From a virus: a stretch of DNA of 25,069 nucleotides. Positions 1 to 24,687 of this stretch are shown here, in pieces (the first letter of the stretch is position 1; every line of letters starts with the position of its first letter). Both the position numbers and the translations under genes were made by a program. The DNA lies in IMG/VR virus record IMGVR_UViG_3300030109_001363, positions 1 through 25,069 of that record; one strand, 5' to 3'. The notes under the pieces were generated by a model. The model was not told the origin of the DNA and did no database searches. It was given only the letters and a program-made list of their open reading frames with translations.

Positions 1-148
1 AGTAGCTAAGAATAGATATGGTAGCACCAACTCTTGCGAGGTTGGGTATCATGGTAATAGTTGTTTGGTTACTAATTCAGAAGCTGAGGCAGTATCATTA
101 GCAAGAGAAAGAGGAGACGATGTAGGTGGTACACCTAAACCTTTTTAA
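1..148 (+). CDS. C-terminal end of an unrecognised plus-strand protein (partial)
   Basis: Reading frame 2 of the plus strand is open from the left edge to a TAA at 146-148 and encodes 48 residues ending in GGTPKPF. There is no ATG in frame, so the start must lie outside the window. The peptide has mixed composition (two Cys, a GYHGNSC stretch, an acidic helix-like EAEAVSLARERGDD stretch), which looks like real protein rather than AT-rich noise. It is the only plus-strand gene supported here and converges tail to tail with the late operon: its TAA and the TAA of the minus-strand gene at 145 lie in the same TTAA. No terminator hairpin separates them. I do not recognise the family. By position it may be the last gene of an early or replication module, but that is inference. 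Confidence 0.55.
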   Translation, partial: VAKNRYGSTNSCEVGYHGNSCLVTNSEAEAVSLARERGDDVGGTPKPF

Positions 149-3100
149 ACTTGACGTTTCTTTTTTGCTTTCTGCATTTTTCTTTTTACTATTGCTTTGT
201 AATCTATATCTGTTACAAGTATAGGATATAATGGATACGAACTATTCCAATTTCTCATATCTTCTAAAGCGTCTTGATACGCTTCTGGAGTACCTGCTTT
301 TATAACAGAATCTATAATAGCTGATTTTCTTCTTCCTCTTAAAAACTCTATTCTACTTTGAGTCATTCCACCTGTTTCTATTCTTTTAGCTACATCTTTA
401 AGTAGAGGGCTACCTGTCATTCTTAATGCCCTAGAAGGAACTCTTTTTATAAAGTCTCCTTGATAGTTTTTATAGTCTCTTTCTAATGCTTCTATAAATT
501 TAAATAGTTCGCTTATATCTGACATAAAAGGAGGAGAAGCAAAGAACGCTAATGCTCCTGACATACTCCTACCTTCTTCTAATCCAGCCATTAGAAAATC
601 TCCTAAAAACCCAAATGAACCTATAGCGGCTACGTTTTCTACTATTTCACTTGCATCTGCTTCAAAAAATGTAGCAGGGTCATAAGCCTTTTCTCCAGAT
701 GCTAGTTGCTTCATAAGCTCTTTTGCTTTTATAGCAACTGCTCCTGTAGCCATACCACCTGCGGCTAGTCTGAGTAGTGGCATGAAATTACCGTGAGCCA
801 AATCAAACTTTAAAGTATCTGTTATAAAATTATATTGTCTTAATCCAAATGACTTAAACTGAAGAAAAGGTTTCATCATTGGCCTATTAAGTACTAGTGG
901 GTCTGCTAAAATATCTTTTTGTAGCTGAGTTTTAACTGCAAATTTACCTATTGCATTTATAACAGTAGAGTCAGGTAACTTACCTTGTTTTATTTGAGCA
1001 GGGTCTATTCCCATTTTATTTAATGTAGAGTTAGCCCATTTTCTAGAACCCATTCTTCCTAATCCAAATCCTCTTTTACCAACAGATACAGCTACCAAGT
1101 CGTCTATTAAAACTCTAGCAGATGCGGCGGCTAATATGTTATTAATAGAGTTAATTCTATTAAACTGAGAAATATCAGTTAACCTACCTACTACTTTTTT
1201 AGATATATCACTTTGTTGAGACAAGCCCATCATTTCATTTATGTATTTATATAAGTTACCACCAGAAGAATCAACTTGTTTTCTAAAGTCTTTATCTGTC
1301 ATATACTTATACGTGCCTTTAGTAAACCTCCAATACCCAGCAGATAAAGCAGAAGATATTGCAAACTGAGATAAGTTCATAGCTGTTGCTGTACCTAATG
1401 CAATTTTAGTAGAAGTTTCCCACTCCATAACTTTTTGCATAAAGTCTTTTATTCCGGGATTAAGATTGTATTGTTTGTTATATCCTATCGTTCCCATTAC
1501 ATGATTATGCAATTCCCTCATAATAGGTAAATCATTAACGTTTGCCTGTTTTAATAAGTTTTCATAAATCTCACCTTTCTTTCCAAAGTTATTTACCTCT
1601 GCAGAACGTCTTGCAACATTAGATGAGTATATACCTAGTAATTTTCTTATATCTCTTTCGTAAAATTTTGATTTTAATTTAAAAGTTCTTTGACTTTCTA
1701 AGTTACCATCTCTCTTAAACACTTCTCCATATGAAAGCCTACCCATAAGAGCCATAGCTTTAAATTGACTAATTGGCTCTGCTTTGTTTTGTTGTAAAAC
1801 TTGACTAAGTATATCGCTATGCATTTCTCTAGTCTCTGATGATAATGATGGCATAGCTTTTTTAATAATTCTATTTAAAAACCTTGCTTCTCCGGGTCTA
1901 TCTTTTGCAAAACTTTCTGGGTTATTCATAGCTTGTATAATTAAATCTATATAATCACTCTTTAAATCTTTTACTAGCATTTCTTCTTTACGCCTAGGAG
2001 ATTCTTTAGAAATTAAATCAGATATCTTATATATATCAGCAAAAACTTTTTCAGCAACTTTCTGTTGAAGTATAGTAGGTATATAATTTTCTATATAACC
2101 GGGCTTAACTCCAGATTCTCTTGCCCTATTAAATAAAAAATTTGAAATTTGCCTATACCCCGTTGTTTCTGGTGTATTTATACCTTGTTCTACTGCATCA
2201 GAAAGCAATGTCCAGTAATTTTTAGATACCTCAGATTTGCTTAGATTCATAGCTTTTGACAAGCTTGCAATTTGTTTACCTGTTGGTTTTTCTGCATTTA
2301 AACCAACACTAGACATTAAGTCGTAAGTTTCTGACAAAGTTCTTCTTTGGTCTACTACAAACTTATCAACCTTGGCAACATACATTCTTCTAACAGGGCT
2401 AACAGTACCTTGATTCTTAGCAGGTCTAAAAACATCTAGTAATTTATTAGCTGACTCTGGTAACATATCATCTAAAAATATACTAAACCTAGTTTTTTGC
2501 ATTGGAACTCCATTTTTTTCTAAGCTTTCCAATGTTTTCTTTGTGTATTTTTCTACTGTAAGCTTATCTCTAAGGTCTATAAGTTCTTTACTACTAAGGT
2601 CTGAGTCTTTTCTAGGCAATTTTTCCTTACCGTTAGAAACTCTCTGTAATCCTCTGTTCGTTTCTTTTTGCTCAGTTGAGTGACCTAACTCTTTTTCTAA
2701 TTGCAAGACTTCTTTTATTCTCTGGTTTTTTAATTCTCTAGAAGGTATATTTACATTTTCTTTTTTTCTGTAATTTTCGTTAAAAATCTTTTTATCTCTT
2801 ACTACAACTTCATTAGTATCTAAAAACTTTAATTGAATTTTGTCTTTGTCAAAACTTAAAATTTTTACTTCTCTTTTTCCTTTTCTGTCTGTGTATATAT
2901 TATCATATAGCTCATTAGCAAAACTTTTCCTACCTGTTATTTCAGCTTCTTTAGTAATGTCAAAACCCTCTGGAACAGTTTGATACCTAATTTCTTGTTT
3001 AGTTGCATCCTTTCTAAATTCATTAAGTTTTTTAAATCCTGTAGTAGCTACTTTATTTACACCCTTAATACCTAGTATCATACCTCCTGCATGAATCCAA

Positions 3101-3870
3101 TCTTCAGGAGTAGGAGTTCTTCCTTCTAATGCAGGTGCGGCTATACCAAATTGAGTTGTTTCTGTTAGTGTTCTACCTATTACACCTACGCCTTTTTGTG
3201 TTAAGAAAGCATTGGTAGCTCCAGTCATCCCACCTAATACAGCTCCTTTAGCTCCAGCTTTTACTACTTTACCCGGAGATATAGTACCGTCTGATATATA
3301 TTCATTTAAGGCTTCACCAGCTCCAGAATATAAACTTAATGCCCCTGCTCCAGCACCACTAGATGATGCCATTTGTTGAGTAAATGCACTAGCTTTTAAT
3401 GCGGCTTTATTTGCTACATTTTTAGATACTCTGTTTTGTAATAATTTTTTAAGTATAAATTTTTTAGCTAATCCTTTAGCCGCTACACCACCAACACCAC
3501 CACCTATAATTGTAGTAGCAAGGTCTAAAGGCTGAAAGAATGAGGCTACTCCTGCGGCTACATCTGCAACGATTCCGGGATGATAGTTCTCTAGATTATG
3601 AACTTGCTTTTTATTAGTAGCTATAGCTTCAGCCATACCCTGTATAGAACGGTTGTACCCATCTTTCCAAATATTGCCTAGCGTATCTGTTATTCCACTT
3701 TCGTCTTTAGGTTTATATTCTGTATTTTCTATGTTTAATTTATATTGAGGAAATCTTTTTACAATAGCTCTATAGGCTGAGTCGTCATCCATAGAGTTGT
3801 AAGAAGGGTCTGCAGATCTGAAGTCGTTGACCAATTCTTCCTTGGTCATATTTGGATTAAACTGTGCCAT
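145..3870 (-). CDS. Very large internal virion / DNA-ejection protein candidate
   Basis: A 1241-residue protein, the last gene of the minus-strand operon. Residues 1-60 are charged and contain an AYRAIVKRFPQYK stretch. Residues about 99-135 form a Gly/Ala-rich hydrophobic segment, and a second Gly/Ala-rich stretch lies near residues 170-230. The middle is Lys/Glu-rich and helical. The last third mixes amphipathic helices with another hydrophobic patch (LRLAAGGMATGAVAIKA) and ends in a basic tail. The size, hydrophobic segments and place at the end of the virion operon after the nozzle gene match the position of T7 gp16-like ejection proteins. The C-terminal part also resembles the 'large polyvalent protein' regions of marine phage proteins. 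Neither similarity could be tested. I see no transglycosylase signature. Its ATG overlaps the upstream stop in TAATG and has no good ribosome-binding site, so it probably depends on translational coupling. Confidence 0.7.
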   Translation of the reverse strand: MAQFNPNMTKEELVNDFRSADPSYNSMDDDSAYRAIVKRFPQYKLNIENTEYKPKDESGITDTLGNIWKDGYNRSIQGMAEAIATNKKQVHNLENYHPGIVADVAAGVASFFQPLDLATTIIGGGVGGVAAKGLAKKFILKKLLQNRVSKNVANKAALKASAFTQQMASSSGAGAGALSLYSGAGEALNEYISDGTISPGKVVKAGAKGAVLGGMTGATNAFLTQKGVGVIGRTLTETTQFGIAAPALEGRTPTPEDWIHAGGMILGIKGVNKVATTGFKKLNEFRKDATKQEIRYQTVPEGFDITKEAEITGRKSFANELYDNIYTDRKGKREVKILSFDKDKIQLKFLDTNEVVVRDKKIFNENYRKKENVNIPSRELKNQRIKEVLQLEKELGHSTEQKETNRGLQRVSNGKEKLPRKDSDLSSKELIDLRDKLTVEKYTKKTLESLEKNGVPMQKTRFSIFLDDMLPESANKLLDVFRPAKNQGTVSPVRRMYVAKVDKFVVDQRRTLSETYDLMSSVGLNAEKPTGKQIASLSKAMNLSKSEVSKNYWTLLSDAVEQGINTPETTGYRQISNFLFNRARESGVKPGYIENYIPTILQQKVAEKVFADIYKISDLISKESPRRKEEMLVKDLKSDYIDLIIQAMNNPESFAKDRPGEARFLNRIIKKAMPSLSSETREMHSDILSQVLQQNKAEPISQFKAMALMGRLSYGEVFKRDGNLESQRTFKLKSKFYERDIRKLLGIYSSNVARRSAEVNNFGKKGEIYENLLKQANVNDLPIMRELHNHVMGTIGYNKQYNLNPGIKDFMQKVMEWETSTKIALGTATAMNLSQFAISSALSAGYWRFTKGTYKYMTDKDFRKQVDSSGGNLYKYINEMMGLSQQSDISKKVVGRLTDISQFNRINSINNILAAASARVLIDDLVAVSVGKRGFGLGRMGSRKWANSTLNKMGIDPAQIKQGKLPDSTVINAIGKFAVKTQLQKDILADPLVLNRPMMKPFLQFKSFGLRQYNFITDTLKFDLAHGNFMPLLRLAAGGMATGAVAIKAKELMKQLASGEKAYDPATFFEADASEIVENVAAIGSFGFLGDFLMAGLEEGRSMSGALAFFASPPFMSDISELFKFIEALERDYKNYQGDFIKRVPSRALRMTGSPLLKDVAKRIETGGMTQSRIEFLRGRRKSAIIDSVIKAGTPEAYQDALEDMRNWNSSYPLYPILVTDIDYKAIVKRKMQKAKKKRQV

Positions 3871-11869: not shown

Positions 11870-12250
11870 TTAATCTCTTATTTCTATATGAACTAAATCA
11901 TCAAATCCATTATCTTTAACATCTCCATCGCTATCCCAGTCTCCACCCCAACGAACTTTCAAGCCTAATTGATGAGCAATGCCTCTTACCATACCACCCA
12001 TATAGTGAAATCCGTCTCTGTTTTCCCAGTCTATTGGATAAGGAGATAAGTCTACTGCTTTGCCTTCCATATGCTTAGAGTACTTTACTTTAGTAGCGCC
12101 TTGCTTTAATAGCTTTTCTTGTCTTTCTTTGCTTCTTAAACCTTCTATAATAGTAACATCCATAATTTTTATTAATTCATCTAAAACAGATATCAACCTA
12201 TGGTCTACACCTTTTAATCTTTCTTTACTTTTCCTACCAAACTTATACAT
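11870..12250 (-). CDS. Endolysin, M15-family peptidase (L-Ala-D-Glu/D-Ala-D-Ala endopeptidase type)
   Basis: A 126-residue soluble enzyme expected to cut peptidoglycan cross-bridge peptides during lysis. The zinc-site signature is visible: S58-K-H60-M-E-G-K-A-V-D67 (the S.H..G.A.D motif) and, near the C-terminus, a LVHIEI segment with H121 and E123, which supply the third zinc ligand and the catalytic acid in this family. Upstream EGLRSKERQEKLLKQG is the usual helix of phage VanY-like endolysins. There is no signal peptide or separate cell-wall-binding domain, as expected for a compact Gram-negative phage enzyme. The frame is open to 12313, but the ATG at 12250 follows a GAAGAAGA stretch and starts one base after the stop of the preceding small gene, so I prefer it. 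It is the last gene of the small-gene cassette. Confidence 0.88.
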   Translation of the reverse strand: MYKFGRKSKERLKGVDHRLISVLDELIKIMDVTIIEGLRSKERQEKLLKQGATKVKYSKHMEGKAVDLSPYPIDWENRDGFHYMGGMVRGIAHQLGLKVRWGGDWDSDGDVKDNGFDDLVHIEIRD

Positions 12251-12251
12251 A

Positions 12252-12416
12252 CTATCTTCTTCTTTTCTTAGCTGTCTTAGCGGCTTTTTTAAAAGCGCCT
12301 GCTTTAGGAGCACCTTTAGCGCCTTTTTTTCTCATTTTTTCACCACTACCAGCTTTAATTCTTTTACGTTTAGCGTGTATGTTTGCGTATAAACCTTTCT
12401 TTTTTTTCTTAGCCAT
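12252..12416 (-). CDS. Small lysine-rich basic protein (54 aa)
   Basis: A 54-codon gene from ATG at 12416 to TAG at 12254-12252. The product starts MAKKKKKGLYANIHAKRKRI and continues with AGSGEKMRKKGAKGAPKAG, ending in KKRRR. Nearly half the residues are Lys or Arg and there are no acidic clusters. Peptides with the same 'KKKGL.ANIHAKR.RI..GSGE.MR..G..GAP' design recur in marine phages, from memory and not checked. The start overlaps the upstream stop by one base (TAATG) and is preceded by AGGTAAGTA. The endolysin starts one base after its stop. The function is unknown; nucleic-acid or lipid binding are possibilities suggested only by charge. Confidence 0.7.
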   Translation of the reverse strand: MAKKKKKGLYANIHAKRKRIKAGSGEKMRKKGAKGAPKAGAFKKAAKTAKKRRR

Positions 12417-12595
12417 TACTTACCTACTTTTTTCATTGCTATTTTATGAGATTGAGTAAATGTTTTACCATTTTTTATAGATGTAACCATTGCTCTTATA
12501 TGTTTAGCTGTATGATGCTTTGAATGTTTTTTCATAGCATTAGCTTGCCTAGTAGTTAAAGAAGAAACTGAAACACCTTTTACTTTTTTAACCAT
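12416..12595 (-). CDS. Small basic His/Lys-rich protein (59 aa)
   Basis: A 59-codon gene from ATG at 12595 to TAA at 12418-12416. The product begins MVKKVKGVSVSSLTTRQANA and contains KKHSKHHTAKHIRAM, then GKTFTQSHKIAMKKVGK at the end. It is compact, basic and His-rich, with regular helices. The pattern 'L..RQ...M..H..HHT..H......M..G.TF...H..AM..VGK' is one I associate with small proteins of marine and cyanobacterial phages (not checked here). It is packed between two other small basic genes, starts one base after the preceding stop and shares a TAATG with the next gene. No function is known; with its neighbours it may be a virion-associated or DNA-binding accessory. Confidence 0.72.
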   Translation of the reverse strand: MVKKVKGVSVSSLTTRQANAMKKHSKHHTAKHIRAMVTSIKNGKTFTQSHKIAMKKVGK

Positions 12596-12596
12596 A

Positions 12597-12905
12597 TTAT
12601 TTACACTTCCACCTTCTACGAGCTTGTCTTATTCTAGAATTTGGATTGTTTCTAGTTTTAGCAGAGCTTCGTTTTAATTGACCTAAAGACCTAGCACAAT
12701 AAGATTTTCTTCTTTTTGCGGCTTTACTTCCTTTCTTAACTTTTCCTGTAACTGCTGTTTTTAACTTAGAACCGGGATTAGCTCTTCTATGAGCCTTCAC
12801 TCCCTTCTTAGTCATTCCAGCTCCAGACTTAGTAGGTCTGTAGTTACCACCTTTACCAGTAGTTCTTCTAATTGCCTTTTGTCTTCTTTTTGTCTTAGTA
12901 GGCAT
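12597..12905 (-). CDS. Basic Cys-containing small protein, DUF6321-like
   Basis: A 102-residue, strongly basic protein. After a KTKRRQKAIRRTTGKGG leader it carries GAGMTKKGVKAHRRANPG and then AVTGKVKKGSKAAKRRKSYC, an SR-rich linker, and a terminal RRRWKCK. The order 'G.G.T.KG....R..NPGS.L.TAVT......GSKAAKRRKS[FY]CAR ... W.C' is the hallmark I recall for phage DUF6321 proteins; this is from memory and was not searched. The conserved Cys residues could bind metal or form a disulfide. The ATG overlaps the previous stop in TAATG with AAGGATAAG before it. It sits in the lysis-proximal small-gene cluster; the biochemical role is unknown. Confidence 0.75.
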   Translation of the reverse strand: MPTKTKRRQKAIRRTTGKGGNYRPTKSGAGMTKKGVKAHRRANPGSKLKTAVTGKVKKGSKAAKRRKSYCARSLGQLKRSSAKTRNNPNSRIRQARRRWKCK

Positions 12906-13132
12906 TACTTATCCTTAAAAACACCTGCTAGTAAATCAGTAACAACATCCATCATTTCTTCAAAAAACTTTTGTTCTTTTTCTTCTTTAACAAAAGGTAT
13001 ATTAATTTTTTCATTCATCTTTGTTGCTAGCATATCAGAAAATTCATCAGACTCTAGATGACCCATAGCTTCTAATTTCATCTTTTCTGCTTGCTCCTCA
13101 GCTAACTTAACTAACATTGATTTTATATTCAT
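12905..13132 (-). CDS. Small acidic helical protein (75 aa)
   Basis: A 75-residue protein, helical and acidic in its middle, with an EEQAEKMKLEAMGHLESDEF helix, then NEKINIPFVKEEKEQ and a hydrophobic/amphipathic helix MMDVVTDLLAGVFKDK at the C-terminus. There is no signal peptide; the C-terminal helix could associate with membranes. The start is well supported by AAGGA six bases before ATG. It overlaps both neighbours by one base. It is the only clearly acidic member of the small-gene run and lies between the membrane proteins and the basic proteins. I do not know its function. Confidence 0.7.
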   Translation of the reverse strand: MNIKSMLVKLAEEQAEKMKLEAMGHLESDEFSDMLATKMNEKINIPFVKEEKEQKFFEEMMDVVTDLLAGVFKDK

Positions 13133-13275
13133 TATAATTCCTTTATGTTTTTTATTTTGTATGCTAAATAAACAATAGTCATAATCCCTATAACTAATTG
13201 TAGTAATAAATTTATGTTAGCTAAATGGATGCCATAGTTAGCAAACGATAAAGCTGAAACTTTTAGGCTATCCAT
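13132..13275 (-). CDS. Small single-span membrane protein (47 aa), holin-like candidate
   Basis: A 47-codon gene from ATG at 13275 to TAA at 13134-13132. The product begins MDSLKVSALSFANYGIHLAN and has one strongly hydrophobic segment from about residue 20 to 38 (INLLLQLVIGIMTIVYLAYK), then a short basic tail KIKNIKEL. This is the size and layout of a one-span phage membrane protein. It sits inside the cassette that ends in the endolysin, so a holin or holin-regulating role is plausible but unproven. AGGGGAAATC precedes the start, and stop/start overlaps of one base link it to both neighbours, which is good evidence that it is translated. Confidence 0.72.
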   Translation of the reverse strand: MDSLKVSALSFANYGIHLANINLLLQLVIGIMTIVYLAYKIKNIKEL

Positions 13276-13610
13276 TAATGATTTCCCCTGCCATTAATTC
13301 TTCCAGACATATAACTAATTTTATCAGATAAGTCATCTACTTCCTTCATTAAGGCTTCATGCCTTCTATTTCTCTCATTAGATTGAGATTCTGAATCTCT
13401 TTGTATTCTGTCTAATAATTTAAGAAGTATGCTTTCAACATTTGCATTAGTGCCTTCTGCTTTTGCTAAGTCTACAGACATTTTATCTAGGGCTTCGTTT
13501 TGAGAAGCTTGAGACTTAATTAAATTTGTTATCATAAATCCAAAAAGTAAAGATATTACCCCTGTTGCGCCAAGTGTTCCGTATGCTTCTAGTAGTGTTG
13601 CCGTATCCAC
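13275..13610 (-). CDS. Membrane-anchored coiled-coil protein, holin/i-spanin-like candidate
   Basis: A 111-residue protein with GTG start. A short N-terminus (MDTATLLEAYG) is followed by one hydrophobic segment, about residues 12-30 (LGATGVISLLFGFMITNLI). The rest is a long charged helix (KMSVDLAKAEG; LLDRIQRDSES; EVDDLSDKISYM), ending in RINGRGNH. One N-terminal span with an extended coiled coil is the shape of i-spanins and of some one-span holins. GGAG lies nine bases before the GTG, and the GTG overlaps the preceding TAG as TAGTG. The gene lies between another one-span coiled-coil protein and a 47-residue membrane protein. Function within lysis is inferred from context only. Confidence 0.72.
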   Translation of the reverse strand: MDTATLLEAYGTLGATGVISLLFGFMITNLIKSQASQNEALDKMSVDLAKAEGTNANVESILLKLLDRIQRDSESQSNERNRRHEALMKEVDDLSDKISYMSGRINGRGNH

Positions 13611-13936
13611 TATTTCTTTCTCCGCTTGTTTTTACCCCATGATAGAGGATTAATGTTAAATTCTTTTTCATAAAAAGCTACTTTTTCTGCCAACTCTTGT
13701 CGCTCAATCCGTTCCTCCACGATATGTTTATCAAGTAAGCTCCCAATTTGTTCAGTTTGAGTAGTAACGCTATTTTCAAGTCGTCTAATCCTTGCTTCAA
13801 TTTGCCAATAACCATACACCAACATACCGATAAGAACTGCAATTTGACCAAGCCACTTAAGGTTAATGCTAACAATAGCATTGTCATCAAGAACAGTAGC
13901 ACGGTAACTTCTTGCGGTATCTGGCTTTTCACTCAC
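13610..13936 (-). CDS. Single-span membrane protein with coiled coil, spanin/holin-like candidate
   Basis: A 108-residue protein when started at GTG 13936. An upstream in-frame ATG at 13957 would add seven residues but has no clear ribosome-binding site. The GTG has GAGG four bases before it and overlaps the lipoprotein stop as GTGA, so I prefer it. Residues 1-27 are polar, 28-46 form a membrane span (WLGQIAVLIGMLVYGYWQI), and the remainder is a charged helix (IEARIRRLENSV, then KHIVEERIERQELAEKVAFYEKEF) with a basic KNKRRKK end. The shape fits an inner-membrane coiled-coil lysis protein. Whether it pairs with the neighbouring lipoprotein is untested. Confidence 0.72.
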   Translation of the reverse strand: MSEKPDTARSYRATVLDDNAIVSINLKWLGQIAVLIGMLVYGYWQIEARIRRLENSVTTQTEQIGSLLDKHIVEERIERQELAEKVAFYEKEFNINPLSWGKNKRRKK

Positions 13937-14166
13937 TTTACCTCGACTTCTTCCCATCTTTCATGCTTATAACACCAAGTGCTATAATCGCCGATAGAGC
14001 CATGAAACCAATGAACGACTGAATCAGCATCTATTATTTCTGTGAAAACTGTGTTTGTAACTGTATCTTGAGGTGTTAGAGGTACTCCTGCTACTATCCA
14101 ACCCTGACTTCCGCAACTCTGCATTGTAATGATACCTAACAGGAATATCATAGCTCGTATTAACAA
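13933..14166 (-). CDS. Small lipoprotein candidate, possible o-spanin-like
   Basis: A 77-residue protein started at TTG 14166, translated MLIRAMIFLLGIITMQSCGS. It has a short basic/hydrophobic signal and a Cys at residue 18 in an imperfect lipobox-like context (TMQSC). Processing there would leave about 60 residues. TTG is chosen because GGAG lies nine bases before it; the next in-frame start, ATG at 14151, is too far from that site. The stop overlaps the GTG of the next gene. A lipoprotein upstream of one-span coiled-coil proteins and an endolysin recalls an outer-membrane spanin, but the mature part is not proline-rich, so this is only a candidate. A 61-codon frame starting at ATG 14209 overlaps most of it; I consider that one less likely. 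Confidence 0.55.
   Translation of the reverse strand: MLIRAMIFLLGIITMQSCGSQGWIVAGVPLTPQDTVTNTVFTEIIDADSVVHWFHGSIGDYSTWCYKHERWEEVEVK
13941..13944 (-). promoter_or_regulatory. Ribosome-binding site deciding the GTG start at 13936
   Basis: On the minus strand GAGG is followed by TAAA and then GTG. The ATG at 13957 has only a weak GAAAG before it. This site lies in the last codons of the lipoprotein gene and, together with the GTGA overlap, indicates coupled translation. Confidence 0.5.
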
Positions 14167-15479: not shown

Positions 15480-18400
15480 TTATTTCTTTTCTAATGCTTC
15501 TACTTTTGCTGTTAATTCTTGTACTGCTTTTACTAAATGGGCTACGATGCCTGTTACATTAATTGCTTTTCCATTTACACTAGTTTTAGCATCGTAATCT
15601 TCTCCAGATACATCATTTGGTAATATTTTTTCTATTTCTTGAGCAATAAACCCGCTATTACTACCCTTGCCTTCATCTTTCCAATCAAAAGAAACAGGAT
15701 TCAATTTGCTTACAACTCCAATCCCGTCTGCCAAAGTTTGAACATTCTCTTTGAAAGCTATGTCAGAAGAGTCAACAAGGTCGCCTGTAACAGTTGAATC
15801 TGAGGGATTAATCGTTAGATAAGGAGTTGTTCCAATAGCATCATCGTTACCACCTATAATCAAAGCATCATTAGCGTGGCTATTGTCAATCCCCATTGCG
15901 TAGCCTTTGACCCCTGTTAATAAAAATGCAATTCCAGCGTCCCCGCTACCGTCTTGCTCGACCTTTAATTGAGCATCGTCTACAGATGTATCTTCTTTAA
16001 TGTGAACAGGAACAGTTGGGCTTGGTTGTCCAATTGCTAAACCATTAGCATATACTGTAGCACCACTATCTTGCGCCATATAAACAGCGGATACAGTTGC
16101 ATTACCAAGTGTGACGGAATTATCTGCTACCGCTACAGTTGTTCTTCCTATTGCTGTTCTGTTAATTGCACCTGAAGCTCCAGCAGTTGCTTCGCTTCCT
16201 ATAATAGTATTAGCCTGACCATCTGTAACATCATTGCTTCCAGAATTACCAGCTTTATATCCCACGAAAACATTGTTTCCTCCAGTACTATTATCTTTTC
16301 CAGCTTCAAAGCCTACTCCGACACAAGTTCCAACAGTTAAATCAGCAAGAGCAGTATATCCAACTGCAACAGCCCCATCAGTTGTAAGGTCAGCATTTCC
16401 ACAAGCTCCAGCACCTACTAAAGTATGTTTATGAGAATCAACTGTGGCATCTCCAGTAGCGTAGCCTACCATTACCGAGTTCCACCCTGTAGTAATTGAT
16501 TGCCCACTATCACTACCGACTAAAGTATTGTATTGAGATGAAGTAATCGCTAAACCACTATTTTTTCCAACGGCTGTATTATCAGTTCCTGTTGTGACAC
16601 CACTACCCATAGCCTGTCTACCGATTGCAGTATTGTTATTTGCTGTCGTGGAGTTTCTCATAGCACTTGTACCAACAGCAGTATTTTCCGCACCTGTCGT
16701 AATATTTTCTGCACATAAAGCACCAACAGCCACATTAGAACCACCAGTTTGTAAATCAAATAATGCTTGGTGTCCTATTGCAGTAGTATAATTTGCTCCT
16801 GTTGTAGTACTTGCATTACCTTTAAAAGCGGCATAGCCAACAGAGGTACTATATGAAATTGCCCGATTAGCTGGAATATCTCTCATAGACTCCGAACCAA
16901 CGGCAACAGAGTATGCTACTGTTGTAGGCGTAAACATTGATTGAAATCCCATAGATACGTTTGCTAAGCCAGTTGTAAGACCTTGTGATGCTCCAGTACC
17001 TACTGATACATTCTGAGTGCCTGTGGTGCTATCTTTTAGTGAGTTAAATCCTACGCCAACATTTGAACTACCAGTTGTAACGCTATTCATAGACGAATAA
17101 CCAACTGCTGTATTATACGAATGGCTATTGCCACTAACACCAAATCCAGCACCTGTTCCAAGAAGTGTATTATATTGTCCTGTCACATTGTAAAATCCAG
17201 TTTCTATACCAATGCCTACATTGCCAGTTGTTGTGTTGTCAGAACTAGTATTTTGAGAACTTAAAGCGGCAAAACCAATAGCGATTGACCTATCACCTAC
17301 ATCCTCAGCACCTAATGCTCTTGAACCAATAGCAACACTTCTTGTGGCTATCGTCATTGCATCACCAGCTTCAGAACCGATGACTACATTCTTTTCTCCT
17401 GTATTTATCAATTTACCGCTATCATGTCCAATCAAAACATTTTCATCACCATTGGTAGTAAGTGCATTACCAGCCAATTCACCAAATACAGTATTGTCCG
17501 CACCACCATCATTATTACCAAGCGAAATTCTAGAATTAATATCAAGAACCATATTCGTAGTAAATGAAATACTTGCATCTGCACTACCACTTGCAACAGT
17601 TTGAAAATTGTGAGTACCGCCTACTTGTCTGTAAACACTTGCTTCATCTGTTACAATATGTGCTTGCGCTCCACTACTGTTAATATAAACATTATTACCA
17701 AGCCACGTTGAGCCACCAGCAGACTGAGCCGATGTAGCCATAACATTAGCTAATCCACCAATTTGTAAATTTATAACACTTGAATGACTTGTTTCAGGCG
17801 TAACTCCGATACCAACATTTCCAGCATTATTAATAATCATTCTTTCCGTACCAGTTCGAGTTGTGCTATCACCAGCAGTCCAAAAGTTTATTTCTTCTAC
17901 TGCATTATGCTGAGAATTACCACCACCAATACTGACTTTATTCGTAGATGAATTACTAAATCCTTGCATCATCATAAAGCCTTCAGTCTCAGTACCTGAG
18001 TCATACTGACTATGTGTTATTACTGCATTTTTATTTGTATCATCTGCTATTGTGTTTGTTATGTTAATTGTTCTATCACCTAAAATGTCCATTTTAGCTA
18101 CTGGTGAGCTAGTTCCAACACCAATATCGCCACCTGATTTAATAACCATTGCAGTATTATCTGCTACTGTAGCATTATTGCCATCGGTAGCTGAATCATT
18201 TAGAAAGTATAAATCACCAATTCCATTAGTACCTGTATCTCTAAATACGATACCAGCTTTTTTATTTTCATCTGCTGTACCTGAAGCAACTTTAAAAAAC
18301 AATGATGCATCGCTTCCTGAGTCTGCGGCTGATTGAATTACAATAGATGAATCAGTAGCGTGTGAAACAAGTAATGTTCCAGCAGTTGGGTCAGTAGAAC

Positions 18401-19001
18401 CTATAGCAACTTTTCCAGCTCCATCTATCGTCATAGCGTGAATTGTAGTGCCTAATGTTCTAACTCTAAAATTTATATCTGCTCCAGCTCCATCAAATAT
18501 ATTATCAATATAAGCAGTACCAGCATTTGTGTCTGACCATATATCAAGACCTTGAGTATTATTATCATTGCGAAGAGATAAAACTGCATCTTCACCTGAC
18601 GTAGAATTAGTAATCTGCAATCCACTAATATTAGTTGTTGAACCATCTGGTTTTACAGCAAAAGGCGTATTTGTTTCAATACCTATTGTGTTGTCAGATT
18701 TAAAATACATTTGAGTAGCACTTGCACCATCATTATATAATTTTAAATAGCTATCATCGTGTGGTTGTAAAAATCTCCATTTATTTGTGCCACTTCTCAT
18801 AAAAGCAAGTGTTGTTGCAGAACCACTTGATATTGTAGGGTTAAGTCTTAAAGTATCAGATATTTCAAGATTACCATTAATTATTTCATCGTAGTTACCA
18901 GCTCCATCTCCATTAACTGTTAAATCTCCTTCAATAGTAATATCTCCAGATATTGTACCACCAGAGGATATTGAATTTGCTGTTGTTGTTATAAAAGCCA
19001 T
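15480..19001 (-). CDS. Tail fibre with S74-type intramolecular chaperone
   Basis: An 1173-residue receptor-binding fibre candidate. Residues 1-60 are a Gly/Thr/Ile repeat leader. VGIGT..P-like motifs occur near residues 197-205, 292-300, 395-403 and 991-997, as in many S74 fibres. Residues about 501-970 are a run of short repeats, each with a core like NTAVG..AM, resembling the YadA/Hia 'head' beta-roll, so the shaft or head is probably a trimeric beta-roll. From residue 1078 (SSDIAFKENV...) the C-terminus is a peptidase-S74 / intramolecular chaperone domain with SGFIAQEIEKILP and a final helix AVQELTAKVEALEKK. This family cleaves itself with a Ser-Lys dyad after trimerisation; the SSD and KEN at 1078-1086 are in the expected place. 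A GGGGGA ribosome-binding site precedes the start. Confidence 0.9.
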   Translation of the reverse strand: MAFITTTANSISSGGTISGDITIEGDLTVNGDGAGNYDEIINGNLEISDTLRLNPTISSGSATTLAFMRSGTNKWRFLQPHDDSYLKLYNDGASATQMYFKSDNTIGIETNTPFAVKPDGSTTNISGLQITNSTSGEDAVLSLRNDNNTQGLDIWSDTNAGTAYIDNIFDGAGADINFRVRTLGTTIHAMTIDGAGKVAIGSTDPTAGTLLVSHATDSSIVIQSAADSGSDASLFFKVASGTADENKKAGIVFRDTGTNGIGDLYFLNDSATDGNNATVADNTAMVIKSGGDIGVGTSSPVAKMDILGDRTINITNTIADDTNKNAVITHSQYDSGTETEGFMMMQGFSNSSTNKVSIGGGNSQHNAVEEINFWTAGDSTTRTGTERMIINNAGNVGIGVTPETSHSSVINLQIGGLANVMATSAQSAGGSTWLGNNVYINSSGAQAHIVTDEASVYRQVGGTHNFQTVASGSADASISFTTNMVLDINSRISLGNNDGGADNTVFGELAGNALTTNGDENVLIGHDSGKLINTGEKNVVIGSEAGDAMTIATRSVAIGSRALGAEDVGDRSIAIGFAALSSQNTSSDNTTTGNVGIGIETGFYNVTGQYNTLLGTGAGFGVSGNSHSYNTAVGYSSMNSVTTGSSNVGVGFNSLKDSTTGTQNVSVGTGASQGLTTGLANVSMGFQSMFTPTTVAYSVAVGSESMRDIPANRAISYSTSVGYAAFKGNASTTTGANYTTAIGHQALFDLQTGGSNVAVGALCAENITTGAENTAVGTSAMRNSTTANNNTAIGRQAMGSGVTTGTDNTAVGKNSGLAITSSQYNTLVGSDSGQSITTGWNSVMVGYATGDATVDSHKHTLVGAGACGNADLTTDGAVAVGYTALADLTVGTCVGVGFEAGKDNSTGGNNVFVGYKAGNSGSNDVTDGQANTIIGSEATAGASGAINRTAIGRTTVAVADNSVTLGNATVSAVYMAQDSGATVYANGLAIGQPSPTVPVHIKEDTSVDDAQLKVEQDGSGDAGIAFLLTGVKGYAMGIDNSHANDALIIGGNDDAIGTTPYLTINPSDSTVTGDLVDSSDIAFKENVQTLADGIGVVSKLNPVSFDWKDEGKGSNSGFIAQEIEKILPNDVSGEDYDAKTSVNGKAINVTGIVAHLVKAVQELTAKVEALEKK
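16092..17501 (-). repeat. Array of degenerate beta-roll repeats in the tail fibre
   Basis: Residues about 501-970 of the fibre contain, by eye, 27 copies of a motif of the form [N/S]-[T/V]-x-[V/I/L]-G-x-x-[A/S], at spacings of roughly 14-22 residues (for example NTAVGTSAM, NTAIGRQAM, NVSMGFQSM, SVAIGSRAL). The repeats are conserved in protein but divergent in DNA, so this is old repetition and not a recent expansion. Confidence 0.85.
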
Positions 19002-23355: not shown

Positions 23356-24687
23356 TTAAACTCCTTCTAAGTTAAGTAGATAATGAGTTTCTGGTAAAGA
23401 TACTTCTAAACCAGCTTCAGTAAGAATCATATCCTTACGAAGGTCTTCATCAGCAGACTGAACGTTAGTCATTACTTGAGTATCACGATTCACACCGTTA
23501 CCTACTAATGGTCTGTAAGATACATGATCTAGGTCTACCATCATTAGGTATCCAGAAGAGAACCCTCTAAATAAAGGTTCTTTAACCATGTTCATTGTTC
23601 CATGAATAGTTTCTACGGATAGAACTTTGTGACCAAATCTACCATCTTTTTGACTTATATCATAACGCATTGGGGTATTGCCATAACCAACAGATGCGTC
23701 TATAAATAAACCATCTCCTAGTTTGTTAAAGAAAGTCAATACAGGTAAACTGGCTAGCGCTAGCTTACTGTCAGTTCCTCCACGAGCAGGGTCATATACA
23801 ACTTCGAAATCAGAAAGAATTCTGTCATATGTTAGTTCTGTCGCAGTTGAACTACGAAAGTAAGGAGCACCAGAGCTATAAGTTAATGCCGCATCGTTTA
23901 CTACTGCTGTTCCGTTTTTTACAACGTGACCAGCTATACCTTCAGTATATTGAATACCTCCAGTACTTGCACGCTGACCAAAAAGCATAGCACGCTCAAT
24001 GTCTATTTTATGCTCACGAAGTTTTAAGTTCCATACTCTTTGGAACTCATCTGCATACCCACGATAACGTGTTGCACGAGCTGTGTTAGACATCTCACAA
24101 GCTGTTTTAAATATTTGGGTAAACCCAAAGTCATTATCTAGCTCTTCAGAAAATACGTCTGGAGCACCAGTACCTTCAGCAAATGAAGTACCAATTACTT
24201 GGCATTTTGCATTGTCAGCACCAGTTTCAGCTCCATCAACGGCTGAGATTGTTTTACCTTGAAAAGTTGAAGTAGAACCAGCATCAACTGGTGAACTTTC
24301 AACTCTTACTATTATTGTTTCAGGGGCATTGTTTTCTGTATAATCTACAGCAAAAACCATACCCTTAACCAGCCAATCAACTGACGCACCGTCAGCAGTA
24401 TCAACTGTATAAGTTAAAGAAGAACCAGCCGCAGGAATTGAATGAGAACCAGCGAGTAAAAACCCTCTGTCTGTCATTGAAACCTTTGTTCTGTCTTCTA
24501 AGAATCGGAATTGTGGGTCGTCTGTAGGGACTTTAGCTACCTTTGAAAGGTACACGAAGAATGGAGATTCCTCTGGAGCTAAGTCAGCCACACGATCTGA
24601 AAAGTTAAACAGTCTTCTAGTATGATAACCAGAAGCGGCTGAACCCGGATCGCCAACTTTCACAATACCTTGATTGTAAGTGGACAT
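23356..24687 (-). CDS. Major capsid protein
   Basis: A 443-residue protein. The N-terminus (MSTYNQGIVKVGDPGSAASG) leads to YHTRRLFNFSDRVADLAPEE and FFVYLSKVAKVPTDDPQF, then a beta-rich middle (FEGKTISAVDGAET-like and DVFSEELDND), a long helix (RVWNLKLREHKIDIERAMLFGQ) and a C-terminal beta domain ending in SLPETHYLLNLEGV. The helix in front of a 'FGQR' segment followed by Gly-rich turns is typical of the HK97 fold spine in marine phage capsid proteins, and the length (about 440) fits. AAGGAGT precedes the ATG. It follows a scaffold-like gene and precedes a decoration-like gene, the usual head operon order. Family subtype (for example SU10-like) is not tested. Confidence 0.85.
   Translation of the reverse strand: MSTYNQGIVKVGDPGSAASGYHTRRLFNFSDRVADLAPEESPFFVYLSKVAKVPTDDPQFRFLEDRTKVSMTDRGFLLAGSHSIPAAGSSLTYTVDTADGASVDWLVKGMVFAVDYTENNAPETIIVRVESSPVDAGSTSTFQGKTISAVDGAETGADNAKCQVIGTSFAEGTGAPDVFSEELDNDFGFTQIFKTACEMSNTARATRYRGYADEFQRVWNLKLREHKIDIERAMLFGQRASTGGIQYTEGIAGHVVKNGTAVVNDAALTYSSGAPYFRSSTATELTYDRILSDFEVVYDPARGGTDSKLALASLPVLTFFNKLGDGLFIDASVGYGNTPMRYDISQKDGRFGHKVLSVETIHGTMNMVKEPLFRGFSSGYLMMVDLDHVSYRPLVGNGVNRDTQVMTNVQSADEDLRKDMILTEAGLEVSLPETHYLLNLEGV

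Follow-up and report, generated by a model that had tools for sequence, protein, structure and literature searches.

What do very small, very basic proteins do among the lysis genes of a phage? The question is raised by a stretch of 25,069 nt (positions 1 to 25,069 of IMG/VR virus record IMGVR_UViG_3300030109_001363, hereafter the window), in which a sequence-only reading had singled out five genes of 47, 75, 102, 59 and 54 codons just before the endolysin gene. All five are indeed present, on the minus strand, and we call them P5 to P1. The answer that we favour, and to which we give about an even chance of being right, is that the three basic proteins P3, P2 and P1 are late, DNA-associated and exchangeable proteins of the phage head, encoded by genes that have lodged in the lysis cassette.

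Organization of the locus and coding constraint

The order of transcription on the minus strand is P8, P7, P6, P5, P4, P3, P2, P1 and endolysin (Table 1). Within the run, the count of three very basic products and one acidic product is correct (net charges from P5 to P1: +2, -6, +37, +15 and +23). So is the remark that most junctions read TAATG: if those that flank the run are counted with those inside it, four of six are such one-base overlaps (13275, 13132, 12905 and 12416), the remaining two being one-base gaps (12596 and 12251), and some purine-rich sequence lies upstream of every start. As further one-base overlaps recur across the window (22591, 9062, 6724 and 3870), they are ordinary here and reflect a compact genome, which rules them out as a special feature of the five-gene run.

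Table 1. Genes of the lysis cassette in order of transcription; dN/dS values are medians against IMG/VR homologues.
Feature	Position in window	Strand	Evidence
P8, 77 aa, lipoprotein-like N-terminus, TTG start	13933..14166	-	upstream edge of conserved backbone; syntenic relatives
P7, 115 aa, predicted membrane span + coiled coil	13610..13957	-	phrog_20984 E 2.2e-6; Rz-like E 0.0056; syntenic relatives
P6, 111 aa, predicted N-terminal membrane span + coiled coil, GTG start	13275..13610	-	weak Rz-like spanin match E 0.026; syntenic relatives
P5, 47 aa, one predicted membrane span, candidate holin	13132..13275	-	family alignment; dN/dS 0.17; weak PHROG holin matches
P4, 75 aa, acidic (net -6)	12905..13132	-	family kept beside P5 or directly before endolysin; dN/dS 0.10
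P3, 102 aa, net +37, DUF6321 family	12597..12905	-	PF19846 match; dN/dS 0.09; model pLDDT 86.8
P2, 59 aa, net +15, predicted as three helices, with five invariant histidines	12416..12595	-	model pLDDT 94.8; dN/dS 0.24
P1, 54 aa, net +23, GLYANIHAKR family	12252..12416	-	phrog_16028 E 2.2e-24; dN/dS 0.10
Endolysin, peptidase M15 family, downstream edge of slot	11870..12250	-	PF13539; phrog_465

The five frames are confirmed as real genes under purifying selection, more than chance frames. Third-position changes are in excess across all five in comparison with IMG/VR homologues, and median dN/dS runs from 0.09 for P3 to 0.24 for P2, against 0.07 for the endolysin, values that are to be taken as indicative, since choosing homologues for their protein similarity biases dN downwards and dS has reached saturation in some comparisons.

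Judged by its proteins, the phage belongs to a lineage distant from isolates, with no close one among them. The best isolate matches of its SU10-type capsid protein (window 23356-24687) are 26-27% identical to it, the protein's full-length isolate relatives lie at 22-27% identity, and several large neighbours of the capsid gene gave no PHROG match. A 1173-aa protein (15480-19001), with a Peptidase_S74 intramolecular chaperone domain at its end and short repeated motifs in its middle, is probably a tail fibre.

An exchangeable slot in the lysis backbone

The conserved backbone consists of P5 to P8 and the endolysin (PF13539, 26.2 bits with a cut-off of 25; phrog_465, E 1.7e-37), with variable content between P5 and the endolysin. 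P5 is a candidate holin: in its family, one of 16 relatives matches a PHROG holin at E 0.045 and another at E 0.15, both weakly, with no Pfam holin match, and tblastn of the 47-aa protein gave no match in isolate phages. P4 belongs to a conserved acidic family without a name. At 13933-14166, the conserved lipoprotein-like P8, with its TTG start, lies beside two membrane/coiled-coil proteins, a possible spanin pair.

It had been supposed that only lysis genes are expected at this place. Among the five, this is true of the lysis-like 47-aa gene, but the genes are not one group, and we rejected their treatment as a single unit: P5 and P4 are part of the lysis backbone, apart from the basic set, and P3 to P1 occupy an exchanged slot.

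Scans of IMG/VR gave 91 loci with the endolysin and parts of the backbone, 89 of which were scored. In these syntenic loci the slot contains DUF6321, the family of P3, 26 times and YNKPKR, another basic family, 47 times, and never both, where 13.7 co-occurrences are expected by chance. The same exclusion is seen in 47 distinct loci (DUF6321 in 13, YNKPKR in 22, both in none against 6.1 expected), with a hypergeometric probability of 3.7e-5 for lineages that are not fully independent. Slots that bear P1 also hold DUF6321 or YNKPKR in 19 cases out of 19, and those that bear P2 in 33 out of 34. P4 is the sole scored family in 12 of the 89 slots. Neither DUF6321 nor YNKPKR is found in 16 of them, and thus the basic set is not essential at this place. 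Homology between the two families is undetectable by hhalign (probability 0.12%), and an RRxSFxAR-like stretch is common to both. We infer from this pattern that one family may functionally replace the other. In relatives (L096) the same slot is filled by DUF5824, which has no detectable homology to DUF6321; small basic phage proteins matching DUF5824 are encoded at L096:5685-5993 and L086:4314-4556.

Families and predicted structures of the three basic proteins

P3 matches PF19846 (DUF6321) with 41.7 bits (curated cut-off 28.5) over model positions 6-72 of 72. Its family has an invariant R72 and W99 and a nearly invariant C70 and C101, and when 73 diverse relatives are compared, C-terminal domains of long cyanophage-type proteins among them, each of these four residues is kept in 90% or more. 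Pelagiphage HTVC100P has a relative at 91% identity, and many IMG/VR contigs carry relatives at 81-97% identity. P1 aligns to positions 2-49 of 50 of its PHROG profile, shares 14 invariant residues across 45 sequences and has relatives in roseophages as well as in cyanophages and pelagiphages of the T7-like kind. P2 matches phrog_31838 (E 4.9e-7, profile positions 3-51 of 51) and its family is seen in more than 140 IMG/VR stretches; the histidines that are invariant in 49 sequences (H24, H27, H28, H32 and H50) could form a metal site. The earlier impression that the families are conserved in marine phages is thereby borne out, with relatives in pelagi-, cyano- and roseophages and in many IMG/VR contigs.

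By themselves, the predicted structures of P2 and P3 do not show function. The best fold matches of the P2 model were VIA (Z 4.5) and the Noc DNA-binding domain (Z 4.1), neither significant; the P3 model found no match in the PDB, and its significant matches in a viral structure library are DUF6321 proteins wherever these are named. No fold match indicated DNA binding, and a sequence search of solved structures returned insignificant matches only. None of the five proteins matched a PADLOC defence model at E <=0.1, and nothing on DUF6321 or the family motifs was found in the collection of papers searched.

Pairing of the modules in other phages

The basic families keep each other's company well beyond this slot. 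Of 79 IMG/VR loci with P1, fetched independently of the slot set, 65 have a second basic module no more than 600 bp away and in the same orientation (DUF6321 in 47, YNKPKR in 18, the P2 family in 2), and one has it further off within the fetched stretch. P2 has another basic module equally close by in 65 of 80 loci (YNKPKR 48, DUF6321 16, DUF5824 13, P1 6), and stand-alone DUF6321 has a gene of the PSAYA module close by in 44 of 80. Genes for DUF6321 and P1 adjoin each other in S-TIP37, P-SCSP1u, S-CBP4 and HTVC031P, and CRP-5 holds YNKPKR and P1 within a single short run. HTVC010P, like HTVC100P and HTVC031P, bears modules in their stand-alone form. In S-CBP4 the DUF6321 frame (L450:3216-3488), between hli and the GLYANIHAKR gene gp26, was missed by the deposited annotation.

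The commonest matches among the nearest large neighbours of P1, counted without a random-position control, are terminase, portal, head assembly, scaffold, head-tail adaptor and capsid. For stand-alone DUF6321, a family of no known role and a ferredoxin-annotated one are commonest, followed by portal, capsid and terminase; in 12 of 81 cases the closest large gene belongs to the ferredoxin-annotated phrog_3704 (L001:1381-2067 and similar loci).

Fused relatives and their reported presence in virions

In other phages the same modules are strung together within one protein. S-CAM4 gp151 (141 aa), whose gene lies between terS and terL, consists of P1 and DUF6321; DUF6321 and PSAYA share a single ORF in 63 of 80 loci of the T4-like type. 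HTVC027P has a PSAYA-like gp49, a DUF5872-like gp50 and a DUF6321 gp52 as near-adjacent separate genes, and S-SCSM1_29 (517 aa) has PSAYA, DUF5872-like and DUF6321 fused. Three sequences went into each of the PSAYA and DUF5872-like profiles, the former including S-CREM2 gp160 and not S-SCSM1_29, the latter S-SCSM1_29 and not gp160, so that the DUF5872-like match of S-SCSM1_29 holds by construction; gp160 matches the DUF5872-like profile at 5.8e-18. HTVC027P gp50 matches DUF5872 itself weakly, a family that has also been recorded in a giant virus of algae (PMC12085832).

Some fused or module-bearing proteins have been reported from virions. In purified S-CREM2 virions, ORF137 (108049-109521) was detected with 4 peptides (4.1% coverage) and ORF160 with 7 (PMC10665884 Table 3). 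The first product, gp137, has DUF6321 at its C-terminal end and the second, gp160, PSAYA and a DUF5872-like stretch. The DUF6321 protein S-SCSM1_29 (SSCSM1_29) is annotated as 'virion protein' by its authors, whose mass spectrometry of the virion covered 45 proteins (PMC9602691). We found no other module-bearing protein in S-SCSM1 or in S-CREM2 scanned outside stretches 1-3499 and 43001-56999, so all three such proteins are reported in virions, for which the product of probabilities is about 0.009 given backgrounds of 52/219 and 45/282, a result that is supportive but weak and not conclusive because large proteins are easier to detect. The virion proteome of P-SS2 is uninformative, since the 100 kb scanned of this phage contain no module.

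The virion-detected S-CREM2 proteins gp6, gp13, gp14, gp136 and gp154 (L365, L366) share an N-terminal M-k-x-F-x-x-F-L-x-E, which resembles the T4 capsid-targeting sequence; the proteins with this motif include a SAM hydrolase and a kinase. By inspection, the starts of our three basic proteins (MPTKTKRR, MVKKVKGV and MAKKKKKG) are unlike it. A 485-aa protein at L241:2822-4279 with a GLYANIHAKR module towards its C-terminus begins with MKSFKQLRESE, which resembles the capsid-targeting start.

That the families have no known role is correct by their names alone (DUF6321, phrog_16028 and phrog_31838), but the fused relatives point to a virion or head role, which was absent from the options offered from the sequence. 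Of those options, DNA binding would agree with the charge of the basic proteins, membrane activity fits the 47-aa gene only and not the basic three, and host takeover found no support. A related possibility is that the basic proteins are late host-directed factors that bind host DNA, RNA or ribosomes and never enter particles, the fused relatives being carry-over. We consider it unlikely. Like many host-directed factors, the proteins are very basic, small, accessory and swapped among relatives, and the peptide count of S-CREM2 gp137 is low; yet all three module-bearing proteins of the two proteomes are reported in virions, and head and packaging genes are the commonest identified large neighbours elsewhere.

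Neighbouring packaging and head genes

DUF6321 proteins are encoded between terS and terL in four phages (P-HM1, S-CREM2, S-CAM4 and S-SCSM1); in S-SM1 the gene directly follows terS, and in T7-like phages the small forms adjoin scaffold and capsid genes. The annotation of P-SSP7 shows no 54-aa-type small gene between scaffold and capsid, and PMC13002823 contains no proteome of this phage; we found no mention of the small proteins in the P-SCSP1u cryo-EM paper. Positions beside terminase, scaffold and capsid genes would also suit factors for DNA packaging or head assembly that work alongside the terminase, portal or scaffold and are not part of the mature particle. Gene position alone cannot tell packaging from a virion role, and two large forms are reported from purified virions; we hold this explanation to be rather improbable. 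Least likely, and by our estimate very improbable, are cationic lysis accessories acting on membrane or wall with holin and endolysin, as might be suggested by the place of the genes, after the 47-aa membrane protein and before the endolysin, and by that of the 59-aa family near the lysozyme gene in HTVC111P: the DUF6321 and 54-aa families lie in head and packaging regions of T7-like and T4-like phages, relatives whose slot is empty or filled by other modules retain backbone and endolysin, and the predicted proteins are basic, not hydrophobic.

A proposed role in the head

We return to the DNA-associated head proteins proposed at the outset, a reading that builds on constraint, slot exchange, close pairing, fusion, the head or packaging context elsewhere, the published detection of three fused or module-bearing proteins in virions, and the high net charge. 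Since the families are swapped and are strung into proteins found in virions, those of this locus are probably head proteins associated with DNA, and not lysis proteins. Counterpoints are that in this phage the basic genes adjoin lysis genes, not head genes, that S-CREM2 gp137 was detected by 4 peptides, and that according to the S-SCSM1 authors highly expressed proteins can persist in CsCl preparations. The three genes would probably be expressed late, as swappable modules between the candidate holin and the endolysin. By analogy with the fused forms, we infer that the stand-alone proteins are also present in virions. They would bind the genome, already packaged or about to be packaged, help to condense it in the head, presumably acting together, and may exit the capsid with it and so be ejected into the host. 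P2 would share this role by its association with P3 and P1.

More tentatively, and with more doubt than conviction, we envision a common vocabulary of marine phages, made up of basic mini-domains that can replace one another and seem unrelated (DUF6321, YNKPKR, GLYANIHAKR, the histidine-rich 59-aa family, DUF5824, DUF5872-like and PSAYA). Arranged as tandem mini-genes or beaded into one protein, they would be packaged along with the genome, to condense it or to be injected with it. The families are mostly annotated as 'hypothetical protein' or left unannotated, and they are spread over pelagi-, roseo- and cyanophages, which are among the most abundant viruses of the sea. If they are packaged and DNA-associated, genome-associated proteins that can be swapped as a set would be a feature of many marine phages. 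That the modules occur both as stand-alone genes and in fused virion proteins offers a direct, testable route to function.

Comparison with known systems

The internal head proteins of T4 and other small basic head proteins of phages are small, basic, late and plausibly associated with DNA in the capsid. P1 to P3 gave no sequence match to such proteins and show no T4-like N-terminal capsid-targeting motif. DUF5824 and DUF5872 are basic modules of the same kind that are not among the five genes here. Closer in content are the adjacent mini-genes of T7-like cyano- and pelagiphages, S-TIP37 gp28-gp29, P-SCSP1u gp16-gp17 and HTVC031P gp29-gp30, which pair DUF6321 with GLYANIHAKR, both families as here; these pairs sit between scaffold or hli and capsid, or between capsid and tail-tube, with no 59-aa family between them. 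The DUF6321 proteins of T4-like cyanophages (T4-GC119: P-HM1 PHM1_110 and S-SM1 SSM1_115; S-CREM2 gp137 and S-SCSM1_29) carry the same PF19846 as P3, and their genes lie among late structural genes. In these examples DUF6321 is the C-terminal domain of a protein of 233-517 aa, often together with other basic modules, whereas here it forms a stand-alone 102-aa protein encoded within a lysis cassette.
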